Below are positions 3,207-19,898 of a DNA stretch of 26,122 nt, in pieces. Position 1 is the first letter of the stretch. Each line of letters starts with the position of its first letter. The notes under the pieces were generated by a model that was not told where the DNA came from, ran no database searches, and was given only the letters and a program-made list of their open reading frames with translations. A program made the position numbers and the translations under genes. The DNA lies in IMG/VR virus record IMGVR_UViG_3300036791_000323, positions 1 through 26,122 of that record; one strand, given 5' to 3'. Source of the stretch: a virus.

Positions 3207-3638
3207 ATGTCCAAGTTCCTCTTGAACGACGTCAAAGTGGTGATCAACGGCGTCGACCTCTCAAGCCACGCGTTCAACGTCGACACGCCGTCAGCCAAAA
3301 CAGAGGTCGACGTGTCCGGGTTCAACCCGAACGGCACCAAGGAATACCTCCCCGGCCTGGCCGATCAGACGATCACCGTCCAGTTCGAGAACGACTTCGC
3401 CGCCGCGTCCGTGCACGCGACCCTGAACGGCCTCTACAACTCCGGATCGGCGTTCCCGATGTTCCTGCAGCCGGTCAGTGCCGCCGGAACCAGCGCCACT
3501 AACCCGATCTTCGGCGGCTCAGCGAACCTGTACTCCTACAACGGCCTCTCCGGCGCGCTCGAAGCACGGTCGGACACGACCGCGACGTTCAGGCCCGCGC
3601 CCGGGTCGCTGTTCGCGTGGGGAACCGTCGCGCCGTAG
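3207..3638 (+). CDS. Major tail protein (tail tube subunit)
   Basis: A 143-residue protein with a good ribosome site (AAGGAG at 3193-3198, 8 bases before ATG 3207), as expected for a highly expressed structural gene. It begins MSKFLLNDVKVVINGVDLSS, followed by alternating beta strands (KTEVDVSGF, QTITVQFENDF, TATFRPAPGS). This pattern matches short siphovirus tail-tube proteins of actinophages. It assembles as stacked hexamers around the tape measure protein. It is Ser/Thr-rich (for example SAAGTSATN), so it has many possible O-glycosylation positions for the two enzymes encoded just upstream. The ATG at 3200 is out of frame and is not the start. Confidence 0.82.
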   Translation: MSKFLLNDVKVVINGVDLSSHAFNVDTPSAKTEVDVSGFNPNGTKEYLPGLADQTITVQFENDFAAASVHATLNGLYNSGSAFPMFLQPVSAAGTSATNPIFGGSANLYSYNGLSGALEARSDTTATFRPAPGSLFAWGTVAP

Positions 3639-4031
3639 ATGCCCCCGGTTCCGATACGTGGCTTCGCCGAGCTGTATACCGCGCTCGCGAAAGCTGACCG
3701 GCAAACCCGGCTCGGTCTTCGCGCAGGCCTCCGAGATGTCGCAGAGCCCGTCCGGAAGGATGCGGAAACGCTCGCCGGCTCCGAGATTCGCCGGATGCCG
3801 TTGTCACCCAAATGGTCGAAAATGCGGGTCGGCGTTTCACGGAACCTTGTCTACGTCGCTCCTAGACAACGCGGCGTGAAAACACGCGGGCGGCAGCAGC
3901 TGAGGCGGCCGAACCTCGCAGACCTGCTGATGGACCGCGCGATGCAACCCGCCCTCGACAGGCACGAAAACGAGATCGTCGGCCGGTTCGACGAGATCGT
4001 CGGCCGCATCGTTGACGACTTCAACCGCTAG
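3639..4031 (+). CDS. HK97 gp10-like neck/tail protein
   Basis: A 130-residue protein whose ATG follows the previous stop codon directly. It starts with IRGFAELYTALAKADRQTRLGLRAGLRDVAEPVRKDAETLA, the helix-turn-helix opening of the HK97 gp10 family, then a basic central part (LSPKWSKMRVGVSRNLVYVAP) and a C-terminal helix (MQPALDRHENEIVGRFDEIVGRIVDDF). Family members act in head-tail joining or tail completion. The usual place of this gene is before the major tail gene; here it lies just after it. A short direct repeat (GAGATCGTCGGCCG) occurs in the last helix. Confidence 0.75.
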   Translation: MPPVPIRGFAELYTALAKADRQTRLGLRAGLRDVAEPVRKDAETLAGSEIRRMPLSPKWSKMRVGVSRNLVYVAPRQRGVKTRGRQQLRRPNLADLLMDRAMQPALDRHENEIVGRFDEIVGRIVDDFNR

Positions 4032-8645: not shown

Positions 8646-9073
8646 TGCCAAACCAGCCGAGACCGATCCTGCACGGCCGCGACCACGAACACGGCGGCGC
8701 CGACCCGGCCCGGATCGTCTACGAAACCACCGGCGAAGCCGGGACGGGCGGCGGCATCCAGTTCGACACCGACAACGAAGGCGGCTGGCTCCAGATCACG
8801 ACGAACGACATCACCGAGGCCGGCGGCTCCGGCGGCCTCGGCATCGACCTCGAAGACTGGTCCGGCGGCGGCATCGTCATCAAAGCCGCCTCCGGCGGCC
8901 AGCTGGAGCTCGTCACGAACGGCGGCGGCGACATCGTCATCCAGCCCACCGGCAACCTCCGCCTCTTCGGCGGCGCCAGCCACAACATCATCATGCACGC
9001 GCTCCCGACAAGCGACCCCGGCGTCGCCGGCGCGCTGTGGGTCGACTCGAGCGGCTTCCTGAAGGTGTCATGA
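8645..9073 (+). CDS. Minor tail / fibre-associated protein
   Basis: A 142-residue protein with ATG 8645 sharing its A with the previous stop (TGATG). It opens with ILHGRDHEHGGADPARIVYE, continues with Gly-rich beta strands (GGWLQITTNDITEAGGSGG, GGQLELVTNGGGDIVI) and ends LPTSDPGVAGALWVDSSGFL, a segment common at the end of phage fibre or virion-surface proteins. The repeated Gly and the alternating hydrophobic pattern suggest a beta-helical or trimeric fibre piece. It lies between the distal-tail-like gene and a collagen-like fibre gene. The exact role is unknown. Confidence 0.7.
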   Translation: MPNQPRPILHGRDHEHGGADPARIVYETTGEAGTGGGIQFDTDNEGGWLQITTNDITEAGGSGGLGIDLEDWSGGGIVIKAASGGQLELVTNGGGDIVIQPTGNLRLFGGASHNIIMHALPTSDPGVAGALWVDSSGFLKVS

Positions 9074-10302
9074 CCGCCACGAAGTTCTCGAAGATCATCT
9101 TCGGCGCCGGGTTCACCGTCACCCCCGACACCACCGACCCGGCCGTCATCACCGTCGACGGCAGCGGCGGCCCCGCAGGCGCCACCGGGCCGCCCGGCGC
9201 CGACGGCGCCACAGGCGCCACAGGCGCCACAGGGGCGACCGGCCCGGCAGGCGCTGACGGCACAGACGGCGTCGGTGTCCCCGCGGGCGGCACGACCGGG
9301 CAGGCGCTCGAGAAGGCGTCCGGCACCGACTACGACACGCACTGGGTGACCCCGTCCGGCGGCTCGGTCGCGCACCTCGACGACGTCGGCGACGTCAGCG
9401 CACCCTCACCTGCTGATGAGGACGCGCTCACCTGGGACAGCGGAGTCCCAGCCTGGGTCGCGAAACCCGCTGTGCTCAAGGACATCGTCACGACGAAAGG
9501 CGACATGCTCGCCGCGTCAGGCTCAGCGGCTGTCGCCAGGCTGCCGGTCGGCTCGAACGGCCAGGTCTTGACCGCCGACTCGACGCAGACGCTCGGCGTG
9601 AAATGGTCGCCCGCCGGCGGCGGCATGGTCGCCGACACGCTCTGGGACGCGAAAGGCGACCTGGCGGTCGGCACCGGCGCCGACACCGGCGCCAGGCTCG
9701 CCGTCGGCTCCGACGGGCAGGTGCTCACCGCCGACTCCACCCAGACCACAGGGATCAAGTGGGCCGCCGCAGCAGGCGGCGGCGGCGGCGGCGGCATGAC
9801 GAAGCTGTTCGACTCGACGCTGACCTCGGACGCCGCGACGATCGACACCGGCGCGTCAGGGATCGCCGCCGGATACGCCGTCCTTCTCGTCTACGCCTAC
9901 CTCCGCGCAACCGCCGCCAGCACGACCACCTCGGTGCGGATCCGGGTCAACAACGACAGCGGGGCAGGCAACTACTCCTACCAGTACGTGCAAGGCACAC
10001 AGACAACCCCGTCGGCGGCCGGTGTCAGCACCACGTCCTGGTTCGGGGTGTTCCCAGGTGCCAGCTCGACCGCCAACGCGTTCGGCGCGCTGCAAATGTC
10101 GATCCCCAACTACGACAACACGGTCGGCTGGAAAGCAGCGTCATGGCTGGTAGGCATGGGCGACCCCACCGTCGCGAACGCCTCGTCAAACGCTTACGAA
10201 GGCGTCTGGGGAAGCACCGCCGCGATCAACCAGCTCGCGCTGATCCCGACCAGCGGGAACGTCAAGGCCGGTTCCCGTCTCATCATCTTCGGCGCCGGAT
10301 GA
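9070..10302 (+). CDS. Collagen-like tail fibre protein
   Basis: A 410-residue protein with an ATGA overlap. The N-terminus (MTATKFSKIIFGAGFTVTPD) is followed at about residues 35-65 by collagen-like Gly-X-Y repeats (GATGPPGADGATGATGATG). Next come two copies of a fibre repeat, (V/A)GS(N/D)GQVLTADSTQT(L/T)G(V/I)KW, coded at 9535-9606 and 9691-9762, 156 bp apart. A Gly-rich linker at about 237-244 leads to a C-terminal beta domain of about 165 residues that could bind the receptor. Such proteins form trimeric fibres at the tail tip. The C-terminal domain is the part likely to decide host range; I cannot name its fold. Confidence 0.8.
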   Translation: MTATKFSKIIFGAGFTVTPDTTDPAVITVDGSGGPAGATGPPGADGATGATGATGATGPAGADGTDGVGVPAGGTTGQALEKASGTDYDTHWVTPSGGSVAHLDDVGDVSAPSPADEDALTWDSGVPAWVAKPAVLKDIVTTKGDMLAASGSAAVARLPVGSNGQVLTADSTQTLGVKWSPAGGGMVADTLWDAKGDLAVGTGADTGARLAVGSDGQVLTADSTQTTGIKWAAAAGGGGGGGMTKLFDSTLTSDAATIDTGASGIAAGYAVLLVYAYLRATAASTTTSVRIRVNNDSGAGNYSYQYVQGTQTTPSAAGVSTTSWFGVFPGASSTANAFGALQMSIPNYDNTVGWKAASWLVGMGDPTVANASSNAYEGVWGSTAAINQLALIPTSGNVKAGSRLIIFGAG

Positions 10303-16096: not shown

Positions 16097-16402
16097 ATGG
16101 TCGCGAACGATCCGCAGACGTCGCTGTACGAGGACGTCGTCGAGAACGAGCAGCTCGAGCAGGCGCTGGAGGACTGGGAGAAGCTGAAGGCGAGGGCCGC
16201 GAAGGCCCGCAAGAACTACGCCGAGGCCAACGAACTGGCCAAGGCGCTCGCCGCCGAGATCCAGCTCGAGAACGGCCGCGCCGTCCGCGTCGGCAGGTTC
16301 GTGCTCACCCGCCGGTCGGTCGGCGGAAGGACGGTGCAGTTCGAGACGCAGCCGTCGTCGCGGATGACGATCTCGCTGCTGCCGGAGGACGGATCGTTCT
16401 GA
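16097..16402 (+). CDS. Coiled-coil hypothetical protein
   Basis: A 101-residue protein with a strong ribosome site (AAGGAGG, 16086-16092). Residues 14-55 form an acidic/basic coiled coil (NEQLEQALEDWEKLKARAAKARKNYAEANELAKALAAEI), then a beta-like part (RAVRVGRFVLTRRSVGGRTVQFE). Its stop overlaps the exonuclease start (TGATG). Proteins of this layout often precede recombination genes of actinophages. A role as a partner or inhibitor of nucleases (Gam-like) is possible but not supported by a motif. Confidence 0.65.
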   Translation: MVANDPQTSLYEDVVENEQLEQALEDWEKLKARAAKARKNYAEANELAKALAAEIQLENGRAVRVGRFVLTRRSVGGRTVQFETQPSSRMTISLLPEDGSF

Positions 16403-17217
16403 TGACCCGGCCGCGGAAGCCGCTGCCGCCGACGCGGTTCACGAAGTCGAACGTCTACCACCTCGACGGCGACCGGGTGCCCGGCCCGAGCAAGGTGCTC
16501 GGAGAGGGATTCCCGAAACCGGCGCTGATCAACTGGGCCGCGAACGCGACCGCCCTCTACGCGGCGAACAACTGGGACGAGCTCGCCGCGCTACCGCCGG
16601 GTGACCGGCAGAAGCGGCTCGAGAACGCCCGCTTCGAACAGACGAAGGAGGCGACCGAGCGCGGCCGCGAGGTGCACGACCAGATCGTCCGCTACCTCGC
16701 CCACGAACCGGTCGTGCCGCCCGAAGGGCTCGAGCTGCACGTCGACGCCGCGATCAAGTTCATCGAGGAGTGGCAGATGGCCGAGGTCGCCGTCGAGGCG
16801 GCGTGCTTCTCGCGCGAGTACGGGTACGGCGGCCGGTTCGACCTGGTCGCACGGCTCGCCGACGGGCTGCTGTGGCTGCTCGACTGGAAGACGTCGAGCC
16901 GCGGCCTCTACCTCGAGAACGTGCTGCAGCTCGCCGCGTACCGGTACGCCGACTTCTACGTCCAAGCGGGCGACCTGGACGACCGCGGCTGGTACCTGGA
17001 GCATCCGATGCCGGTCGTCGATCGCGTCGGCGTCGTCTGGGTCCGCGCGGACGGCTGCGAGCTCTACCCGGTCGCGGCCGGCCCCGAGGCGTTCGCCGTG
17101 TTCGGGGCCGTCCAGGCAGTCGCCGAGTTCCGGCAGTACGGCGAGCGTGGCGCGAGCGACGCGTGGATCGGCGAAGCGCTCCGGCCGCCCCCCATCGAGG
17201 AGAAGGAGGTCGCATGA
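16402..17217 (+). CDS. PD-(D/E)XK exonuclease (Cas4/RecB-like)
   Basis: A 271-residue protein, ATG 16402. The core motifs are seen: GREVHDQIVRYL (the His-containing helix), GGRFDLVARL with Asp147, LLDWKTSS with Asp161 and Lys163, and the helix QLAAYRYADFY. This is the RecB/Cas4-type nuclease fold. In phages it serves as 5'-3' exonuclease that makes single strands for annealing. It sits two genes upstream of the RecT-like gene; together they should form a two-component recombination pair of the RecE/RecT type. No iron-sulfur cysteine cluster is seen, so it is not a typical Cas4. Confidence 0.85.
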   Translation: MTRPRKPLPPTRFTKSNVYHLDGDRVPGPSKVLGEGFPKPALINWAANATALYAANNWDELAALPPGDRQKRLENARFEQTKEATERGREVHDQIVRYLAHEPVVPPEGLELHVDAAIKFIEEWQMAEVAVEAACFSREYGYGGRFDLVARLADGLLWLLDWKTSSRGLYLENVLQLAAYRYADFYVQAGDLDDRGWYLEHPMPVVDRVGVVWVRADGCELYPVAAGPEAFAVFGAVQAVAEFRQYGERGASDAWIGEALRPPPIEEKEVA

Positions 17218-17493: not shown

Positions 17494-18555
17494 ATGACCA
17501 TGCAGCAGTACGAGCCGCCGGCGCCGCTCCCGGCGAGCCGACCAGGCGAAGAGCTCGAGCAAGGCCCCGTCGGCGACATCGCCCGCCTACGCGCCTACGC
17601 CGAATACGCAAGCTACGTCGCGAACACCGCCCTCGTACCCGAACCCTTGCGCGGCAAGCCCGACGAGGTCGCCGCCGTGATCCTCACCGGCAAAGAAGTC
17701 GGCCTCGACCCGATGGCCGCGCTCCGCTCGGTCGCGATGATCAAAGGCACCCCGACATTCAAGGCCGAAGCCTTGCGCGGCCTCGTGATCTCGAAAGGGC
17801 ACGAGCTCTGGCTCGAGGACTCGACGACCACGCGCGCGATCGCCGCCGGCCGTCGCGCCGGCAGCGAGCGGATCGGCCGCGTCACCTGGACGATGGACGA
17901 CGCGAAGCGCGCCGGGATCGGCGGGCAGCCGAACTACCAGCGCTACCCGCGCGAGATGCTCGTCGCCCGCGCGACCGCCGCGCTGGCCCGGCAGATGTTC
18001 GCCGACGTCGTCATGGGCCTCGTCGCCGCCGAGGAGCTCGACGAGTTCATCTACAACGGCGCCCCGGTCGCCGAGCTCACGGCGCCGGCCGACGCGCCGA
18101 AGCCCGAGCCGAAGACGTCGGCGCGAAGGCGCCGGCCGACGGCGCAAGCGCCCGCCGAAACGACCCCCCGATCGCCGGCGGGCGCCGCGCCCGTCGAGCC
18201 TAGCCCGCCCCCCGACCCGCAGCCCGAGCCCGAGATGCCGCCCGAGCCGCTCGCGACCGACGCCTACAAGCGACGGATCTTCGCGAGCATGCGCGACCTC
18301 GGCCTCGACGACCGCGACGAACGACTCACCTACACCTCACGCGCAGTCGGCCGCGAGATCACCTCGTCGAACGAGCTCACGCTCGGCGAAGCCACCCGGC
18401 TGATCGACCAGCTCGACGCCGACAAAGCCGCCCGCGACGCCGGCGAGAAAGCACTCCTCGACCAGCTCCGCGAAACCCTCGACGCAACCGACGTCACCGC
18501 GGACGACCAGGAGCCCGAGCCCGACCCCGCGCCCGCCGACGACATCCCGTTCTGA
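17494..18555 (+). CDS. RecT-like single-strand annealing protein with acidic C-terminal tip
   Basis: A 353-residue protein with a perfect AGGAGG 5 bases before ATG. The core (about 28-190) has the RecT-family pattern: VPEPLRGKPDEVAAVILTGKEVGLDPMAALRSVAMIKG, then a strand-and-helix part ending YPREMLVARATAALARQMFADVV. It anneals complementary single strands made by the upstream nuclease. A Pro/Glu-rich linker (about 195-250) leads to a small helical domain (about 255-315). The last residues, PADDIPF, match the SSB C-terminal tip (DDDIPF), which recruits exonucleases and RecQ/RecO-like factors. No separate SSB gene is seen in the genome. Confidence 0.85.
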   Translation: MTMQQYEPPAPLPASRPGEELEQGPVGDIARLRAYAEYASYVANTALVPEPLRGKPDEVAAVILTGKEVGLDPMAALRSVAMIKGTPTFKAEALRGLVISKGHELWLEDSTTTRAIAAGRRAGSERIGRVTWTMDDAKRAGIGGQPNYQRYPREMLVARATAALARQMFADVVMGLVAAEELDEFIYNGAPVAELTAPADAPKPEPKTSARRRRPTAQAPAETTPRSPAGAAPVEPSPPPDPQPEPEMPPEPLATDAYKRRIFASMRDLGLDDRDERLTYTSRAVGREITSSNELTLGEATRLIDQLDADKAARDAGEKALLDQLRETLDATDVTADDQEPEPDPAPADDIPF

Positions 18556-18758
18556 TGAGCAGCCGCGTGTACGGCAACGGCGGCCCGAACGGCATGCGCG
18601 TCTGGTGGCCCGTCGGACTCGCCGACCTCAACCCGGCCGCCCGCGCCGCAGCGCTCGAGCGCGGCTACTGGCCCGACGGCGACCACATCATCACCCGCGA
18701 CGGCCGACGCATCCACCGCCCTACCGAGGCGAAGCGGCTGCGCGAAACGCTCGGATGA
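18555..18758 (+). CDS. Small hypothetical protein
   Basis: A 67-residue protein whose ATG shares a base with the previous stop (TGATG). It contains VWWPVGLADLNPAARAAALERGYW and HIITRDGRRIHRPTEAKRLRETLG, the basic end suggesting nucleic-acid binding. Codon use fits the operon. No family recognised; the location between the annealing protein and the replication initiator suggests a role in DNA replication or recombination. Confidence 0.6.
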   Translation: MSSRVYGNGGPNGMRVWWPVGLADLNPAARAAALERGYWPDGDHIITRDGRRIHRPTEAKRLRETLG

Positions 18759-19300
18759 CCGACGCCGACCTGTGGGTCGTGATCCCGAACTGGGAGAGAT
18801 TCCAGCACTACACCGACCGGAACCCGGCGTGGATCAAGGTCTACACCGAGCTGAACAGCCGCGACGACTTCCGCGCTCTGACGTGGGCAGAGCGCGGGCT
18901 GCTGCTGTCGATCTGGTGCGAATACGCGCTCGCAAATGGGCTGCTTCGACAGTCTGACGTCGGTCCAAGGTGCGGTGCTTCGACACGGCGTCAACACTGG
19001 GCTTCGCTCAACGATGCGGGTTTCATCCAACTTTCTGCTAGCAAGCCGCTAGCACTTCGCGCGCGCGCGCGCGCGCTCGCGAGAGAAGAGACAGAGACAG
19101 AGAAGAACAACGCGCGCACGCGCGTAAGAAAACCCGCGACCGACGAACCGCGCGCAGCCGCTGCCGCCTACAAACCGCACGTCCCCGACGACGTCGGCGA
19201 CCTCGCCGACGCGGAGGTCGGCCTCGAGCTCGCGCGCCGCCTCGCCGGCCAACGACCGATGCCGCCCTCGAAGACGGATGACGACGACTTCTCCTTCTGA
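18755..19300 (+). CDS. Replication-initiator-like (winged-helix) protein
   Basis: A 181-residue protein, ATGA overlap. The N-terminus (ADLWVVIPNWERFQHYTDRNPAWIKVYTEL, then LTWAERGLLLSIWCEYALANGLL) matches the winged-helix head of phage replisome organisers. A second helix part (RRQHWASLNDAGFIQL) resembles a wing-containing HTH. The middle is low complexity (RARARALAREETETEK, coded partly by a CG tract). The end KTDDDDFSF is an acidic tip resembling the SSB C-terminal peptide, as in the RecT-like protein two genes upstream. No helicase or primase gene was found, so host factors must be recruited. Origin is unknown; initiators of this type often carry the origin within their gene. Confidence 0.72.
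   Translation: MTDADLWVVIPNWERFQHYTDRNPAWIKVYTELNSRDDFRALTWAERGLLLSIWCEYALANGLLRQSDVGPRCGASTRRQHWASLNDAGFIQLSASKPLALRARARALAREETETEKNNARTRVRKPATDEPRAAAAAYKPHVPDDVGDLADAEVGLELARRLAGQRPMPPSKTDDDDFSF
18942..18985 (+). repeat. Two TGCTTCGACA direct repeats in the initiator gene
   Basis: TGCTTCGACA occurs at 18942-18951 and 18976-18985, 34 bases apart, in a lower-GC stretch of the replication-initiator-like gene. Direct repeats inside an initiator gene can act as iterons (as in lambda O), but two short copies are weak evidence. Confidence 0.35.
19058..19076. repeat. Alternating CG tract
   Basis: A run of 19 alternating C and G bases, coding for the alternating Arg-Ala stretch, followed by purine-rich GAGA/ACAGAGACAGAG text. 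Two GCTAGC hexamers lie just before it (about 19037 and 19048). Alternating CG is the sequence type most prone to Z-DNA and to slippage; a change in its length by 2 would shift the reading frame. Confidence 0.9.
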
Positions 19301-19898
19301 GACGACACGCGTCGAGTTCACCGTCCTCGGCGAACCGCAGCCGCAAGGCTCGAAGACCGTGATCCAGCAGAAGGGCCGCCGGCCACGGATGATCGAGGAC
19401 AACCCCATGACCGAGCCGTGGCGCGCGACGGTCGCCGCAAGAGCGACCGCCGCGATGAACGGCCGCGAGCTCCGCACCGGGCCGCTGCGCCTCCGAGCGA
19501 CGTTCGTCTTCGCGCGGCCGGCGAGCCACTTCGGCACCGGCCGCAACGAGGGCCGCCTCAAGGCCTCCGCGCCGCTGTACGTCCGCAAGCGACCCGACGT
19601 CGACAAGCTCCTCCGGGCGATCGGCGACGCGCTCACCGGGATCGTGTTCCGCGACGACGCGCAGATCGTCGACGTCAGAGCCGAGAAGCACTTCGGCCAG
19701 CAGCCGTGCGCGCACGTCGTCGTCGAGGAGCTCGCGGTCGAGGACGACCGGCCGCTCGACGAGGGCGATCTCGACGGCCGCTGCGACGCGACCGAGGCGT
19801 TGGCCCGCTGCGTGCACGACCTCGGCCACGCCGGCCCGCACGAATGGGAACATCATCCGGCCCGCCGGATACGGTCGCGGGTCCAGCACCCGCGCTAA
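19278..19898 (+). CDS. RusA-family Holliday junction resolvase
   Basis: A 206-residue protein whose ATG lies 23 bases inside the previous gene. It has the RusA opening EFTVLGEPQPQGSKTV and the catalytic block KRPDVDKLLRAIGDALTGIVFRDDAQIVDVRAEKHF: Asp107 and Asp109 with Lys110 (DVDK), and Asp126/Asp127 (RDDAQI). The enzyme cuts Holliday junctions formed during recombination and prepares branched DNA for packaging. A C-terminal extension of about 45 residues (RCVHDLGHAGPHEWEHH), with Cys and His, is not part of the core family and may bind metal. It is the last gene of the early operon. Confidence 0.9.
   Translation: MTTTSPSETTRVEFTVLGEPQPQGSKTVIQQKGRRPRMIEDNPMTEPWRATVAARATAAMNGRELRTGPLRLRATFVFARPASHFGTGRNEGRLKASAPLYVRKRPDVDKLLRAIGDALTGIVFRDDAQIVDVRAEKHFGQQPCAHVVVEELAVEDDRPLDEGDLDGRCDATEALARCVHDLGHAGPHEWEHHPARRIRSRVQHPR

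Follow-up and report, generated by a model that had tools for sequence, protein, structure and literature searches.

SSB-like C-terminal tips on a RecT-like annealing protein and an initiator-like protein as candidate docking peptides in phages without a recognisable SSB

A recombination module in a virus record of IMG/VR raises the question of why two neighbouring proteins, neither of them a single-strand binding protein (SSB), should end in a peptide that looks like the extreme C-terminus of SSB, and what such tips would bind. The window analysed here is the entire virus record of 26122 bases, to which no host is attached. The module comprises an exonuclease, a RecT, a small gene, an initiator and a RusA resolvase, and its relevant features are listed below.

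16097..16402, + strand: 101-aa protein, function not assigned, ending LLPEDGSF (host-SSB profile score 4.8, p 0.003)
16402..17217, + strand: exonuclease of the recombination module, without a tip (phrog_298)
17494..18555, + strand: RecT-like single-strand annealing protein, 353 aa, with an annealase core at about residues 30-180 and a disordered linker at residues 187-240 (PHROG 4171, E 1.9e-41; AlphaFold2 model; PDB fold matches)
18238..18450, + strand: Red-beta-like C-terminal domain of the RecT, residues 249-319 (VIA Z 9.2 to 8tg7_A; profile E 4.7e-5)
18532..18552, + strand: RecT tip PADDIPF, at the end of an acidic disordered tail (sequence; host-SSB profile score 16.1)
18755..19300, + strand: initiator-like protein, 181 aa (phrog_26426, E 3.9e-6; homologues in viral contigs)
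19277..19297, + strand: initiator tip DDDDFSF (sequence; host-SSB profile score 8.4; junction DNA)
19278..19898, + strand: RusA-like Holliday junction resolvase, without a tip (PF05866, E 7.7e-18; phrog_140)

The start of the initiator-like gene was placed at the ATG at 18755, and the GTG start of a longer mechanical open reading frame was rejected. Both endings named in the preliminary description were confirmed: the RecT terminates in ...EPEPDPAPADDIPF and the initiator-like protein in ...PSKTDDDDFSF. The annealase core of the RecT is identified by its match to PHROG 4171 and by the fold of the Red-beta N-terminal domain (7ujl, Z 7.2). The identity of the initiator-like protein is weak. Its match to phrog_26426, annotated as 'replication protein', covers 45 residues only (11-55), and the structure model is of low confidence. 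Searches of both proteins returned no Pfam match, and neither contains the OB-fold SSB domain PF00436. Disordered display of both tips is predicted, with pLDDT below 50 at residues 350-353 of the RecT and 124-181 of the initiator, and with no secondary structure in the RecT after residue 332. Elsewhere in the window, a tail-region protein at 9070-10302 contains a collagen-like GATGATGATG stretch.

Resemblance to SSB was scored with a profile built solely from 81 distinct host SSB heptamers. The SSB genes were sampled from Actinomycetota genomes because cultured relatives of the RecT mostly have actinobacterial host genera (Salinibacter phages match too); SSBs of a few non-actinobacterial genomes also entered the sample, and the sampled phylum may not be that of the phage's host. 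A search for RecT in Actinomycetota genomes, intended to identify the host, gave a match in just 2 of 198. The sampled Actinomycetota tips are varied and include DDIPF, DEPPF and DEEPF as well as EEGGF, DEGSF, EDYPW and EETPL types. Among the host SSB loci (L161-L233), endings such as GGDDW and VEDEVVF also occur, and some proteins finish with EETPLDAG and so lack the final aromatic residue. An earlier tip definition, an aromatic end with three acidic residues in the last eight, was dropped as too crude, having missed both window genes.

The profile was applied to 1052 genes, called with our own script, from 22 related phage records including the window. Internal heptamers of the same proteins served as background for expected counts and p values, and these p values overstate independence, since the homologues are related. 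At a threshold score of at least 7, 14 of the 1052 genes were hits against 1.1 expected. The window RecT tip ranked first among all 1052 genes (p <1e-4) and is identical, letter for letter, to the ending of one Actinomycetota SSB in the sample (L188). The initiator tip, which ends in FSF and lacks the proline, has a p of about 5e-4. Five of the seven initiators and two RecTs with the strict tip are among the hits, and nine of the 14 are a RecT, an initiator, a helicase or a gene without assignment that lies downstream of a RecT. By sequence, the RecT and initiator tips resemble the SSB C-terminal tip (SSB-Ct) in having an acidic stretch at the extreme C-terminus and a terminal Phe, to a degree far above chance under the 81-tip profile. 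The 101-aa protein adjoins the exonuclease on its upstream side, and its LLPEDGSF, similar to the host SSB tips EEGSF and DEGSF, is possibly a third, weaker tip.

The remaining five hits belong to one minor head protein family with the ending FDDSDIPF, found in four phages. These MuF/VG15-like proteins (phrog_1522) adjoin the portal gene and end in a conserved FDDSDIPF or YDDSDIPF; tipped members lie at L235:4783-5406, L255:18-611, L265:17864-18514 and L271:1945-2592. The FDDSDIPF protein had been considered as a new replication protein, a candidacy rejected on account of its head-protein family. Its ending shows that the motif also occurs outside DNA metabolism, and its presence in a structural protein cautions against inferring function from the motif alone. 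The same head-protein C-terminus is encoded at both ends of record G028 (L265 and L264), which suggests that this record is terminally redundant.

The preliminary description also noted that no SSB gene was visible, and this was borne out: PF00436 has no match in the window and is missing from nearly all of the related virus records searched, many of which may be fragments. The same search does detect an SSB in one additional related record (L012). Tipped and untipped records alike lack SSB, so that its absence does not discriminate between them, and SSB presence was therefore dropped as a contrast.

Conservation of the tips in homologues beyond that of the preceding linker, proposed earlier as a check, gives a mixed picture. 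The strict SSB-like tip occurs in just 4 of 81 distinct RecTs and 7 of 76 initiators; the broad initiator alignment was too diverse for scanning, and a smaller set was used. A second tip, FPEGF/FPEGY or close variants, is present in 12 of the 81 RecTs. Tips of either kind are missing from 65 RecTs, 69 of the initiators have none, and none was found in nine cultured actinophage RecTs. Within the FPEGF group, identity reaches 82% over the last five residues, compared with 27% over the preceding 30 and 59% over the N-terminal domain, which is the pattern expected of the check. In the first-round loci, the FPEGF-like ending is nearly exclusive to RecT, the sole other open reading frame being a non-RecT frame ending in LPAGY. 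As a host SSB tip, FPEGF was not seen among the 81 distinct sampled tips. One RecT clade, with support of 100/98, is tipped in all seven members, five with FPEGF and two with SSB-like endings. Over the core, the RecTs of the window and of locus L001 share 97% identity, yet their tips differ. A further RecT (L047, match at 3240-3812) has two tandem Red-beta-type C-terminal domains followed by an FPEGF tip. Read from these sequences, the tips are often gained, lost or exchanged, yet kept in part of the family.

Similar endings occur on other proteins of the module. In L001, the initiator slot holds a non-homologous 662-aa primase-helicase-like protein, which ends in DDDYGF and lies directly before RusA. 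Its family has an aromatic end in 12 of 17 members, including TDDDIPF and DADIPF, versus 6.3% of all genes, and seven of the 17 exceed the SSB-tip threshold. In the 4.5 kb that follow RecT, tip genes are over-represented (17/392 versus 6/601; p 9e-4, kinship ignored). The DNA leading into RusA (GACGACGACTNC...CTTCTGA) appears to be homologous in the window and L001, though the upstream genes are not. Such a junction hints that the tip may have been retained while the gene body was exchanged, as judged from about 20 bases.

Three proteins of the module that share no homology thus bear tips, which are either retained or replaced by FPEGF/Y as the linker diverges. Since such tips recur in related phages with no recognisable SSB, on various recombination and replication proteins that are not related to one another, they are probably working docking peptides. 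The reading we favour, with somewhat better than even confidence, is that the tips are selected SSB-tail-type docking peptides, displayed on disordered acidic tails by the recombination and replication proteins of phages with no recognisable SSB. They would take part in the known handshake between annealase and SSB tail. Against this reading stand the lack of such tips on most RecTs and initiators, the similar ending of a head protein, and the absence of FPEGF from the sampled host SSBs.

A candidate receptor lies within the RecT itself. In the AlphaFold2 model, built with the family alignment, the C-terminal domain is predicted confidently; its best PDB matches are the C-terminal domain of lambda Red-beta, including the SSB-peptide complexes 8tfu and 8tg7 and the lambda exonuclease complex 6m9k. 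The superposition on 8tg7_A spans 66 residues at an rmsd of 2.1; Foldseek E-values for the Red-beta matches are modest (0.04-0.1). When the sequence profile of the domain was compared with all PDB sequences, Red-beta was the sole significant match. In lambda, the Red-beta C-terminal domain binds both the exonuclease and E. coli SSB, SSB contact is required for recombination, K253 is needed for SSB binding and recombination, and K214 is one of two lysines implicated in SSB binding (PMC8303780). By weak alignment, R274 of the window protein, an invariant basic residue of the domain family, falls within about one residue of K214, and the residue matching K253 is kept solely in near relatives. From this match we infer that the RecT can read SSB tails while bearing such a tail: on model and sequence grounds, it probably carries an SSB-tail reader together with a copy of its ligand.

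The docking-peptide reading leaves two receptors of about equal weight, the host SSB partners and the RecT domain in cis or trans. Under the first, the tips mimic host SSB and recruit its partners (primase, RecO, PriA, helicases, nucleases) to sites of phage recombination and replication, with the RecT's own tip reaching pockets on these proteins. Capture of the host SSB interactome had been the preliminary explanation; with a candidate receptor inside the same RecT, it becomes one of several models and not the default, and we regard it as possible without favouring it. The tip sequences do match host SSB tips, the related phages lack SSB, and the tipped initiators and helicases would profit from recruitment of host primase. 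Weighing against such mimicry, the cell already contains plenty of host SSB with a tail of its own, and none of the host SSB tips in the sample matches FPEGF.

Under the second, an equally tentative proposal, the RecT tip would dock on the Red-beta-type domain of the same subunit or of the one next to it, either as a subunit link or as a switch. In the latter case, the tip would occupy the domain until displaced by host SSB tails. Host SSB tails and the tip of a phage initiator or helicase would dock on the same domain, with the RecT as a hub. The domain match to a Red-beta solved with SSB peptide and the position of R274 near K214 are consistent with this arrangement. So is the tendency of tipped RecTs to adjoin a tipped downstream replication gene (7/15 versus 8/46; p 0.04, kinship ignored). 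On the other hand, almost every RecT of the set has the domain, with or without a tip, the K253 equivalent is restricted to near relatives, and the residue mapping comes from a weak alignment. A more elaborate version, doubtful at present, would be a docking code internal to the phage. It would pair a Red-beta-type annealase that has both an SSB-tail reader and its own tail with matching tips on the initiator or primase-helicase of the same phage. The RecT would then join replication and recombination as a hub without a phage SSB, with FPEGF/Y as another tip of this code, not described before.

Two further explanations would deny the tips a specific partner. Acidic C-terminal tails are familiar as shields of DNA-binding surfaces in T4 gp32, T7 gp2.5, RecA and SSB, and a non-specific electrostatic shield here would make the terminal residue irrelevant. 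This appears unlikely, as what is conserved is the terminal aromatic residue and a fixed FPEGF pattern rather than charge alone, and the FPEGF tail bears little charge. Least probable is that the tips arose by coincidence or from the make-up of the DNA at gene junctions (GAC runs, with TTC-TGA overlapping the next start codon): the RusA start at 19278 does overlap the initiator tip codons by 23 bases (19278-19300) and the tip-stop-RusA junction seems homologous in the window and L001 despite non-homologous upstream genes, but genes at large have aromatic ends at the background rate (6.3% versus 6.7%), and in some loci (e.g., L063 and L003) the tip codons are free of any overlap with the following gene.

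Annealases are efficient in some hosts only, and contact with the host SSB tail is a suspected reason in the recombineering literature. An annealase that carries its own SSB-like tail beside an SSB-tail-reading domain would offer a natural test case for that contact. In the open literature searched, no direct precedent emerged for phage proteins that mimic SSB tails, and the nearest comparisons are with the following systems.

The tips share with SSB-Ct (DDDIPF in E. coli) a short acidic stretch, a hydrophobic residue, a proline (in the RecT tip) and a terminal Phe on a disordered tail; unlike SSB-Ct, they are borne by annealing and initiator-like proteins without the SSB OB-fold domain. Lambda Red-beta resembles the window RecT in combining an annealase core with a C-terminal domain of three helices that agrees in both fold and sequence profile. 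We know of no SSB-like tip on Red-beta, whereas the window RecT has domain and tip in one protein. In two phage pairs, the annealase acts by way of the final residues of an SSB's tail: Sak4 with the HK620 SSB (NDYPPF; PMC5928155) and Sak with the 80alpha SSB (PMC11846896). There the tail sits on a phage SSB, whereas here it sits on the annealase itself and a phage SSB was not found. Deinococcus DdrB, whose fold is unrelated to the proteins described here, has an SSB-like tail that was reported to be unnecessary for radioresistance (PMC3834827), a point of caution for the tips. A further parallel is offered by the T7 primase-helicase gp4 and gp2.5, replication proteins that also have an acidic tail with a terminal Phe and dock partners by it; the T7 primase-helicase docks its polymerase in this manner (PMC12230644). 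The known receptor of gp4 is the T7 DNA polymerase, and the phages considered here are unrelated to T7. If the tips on non-homologous replication proteins do act as proposed, phages without a recognisable SSB would reuse one short docking signal across their replication proteins, in a manner comparable to the T7 helicase tail.
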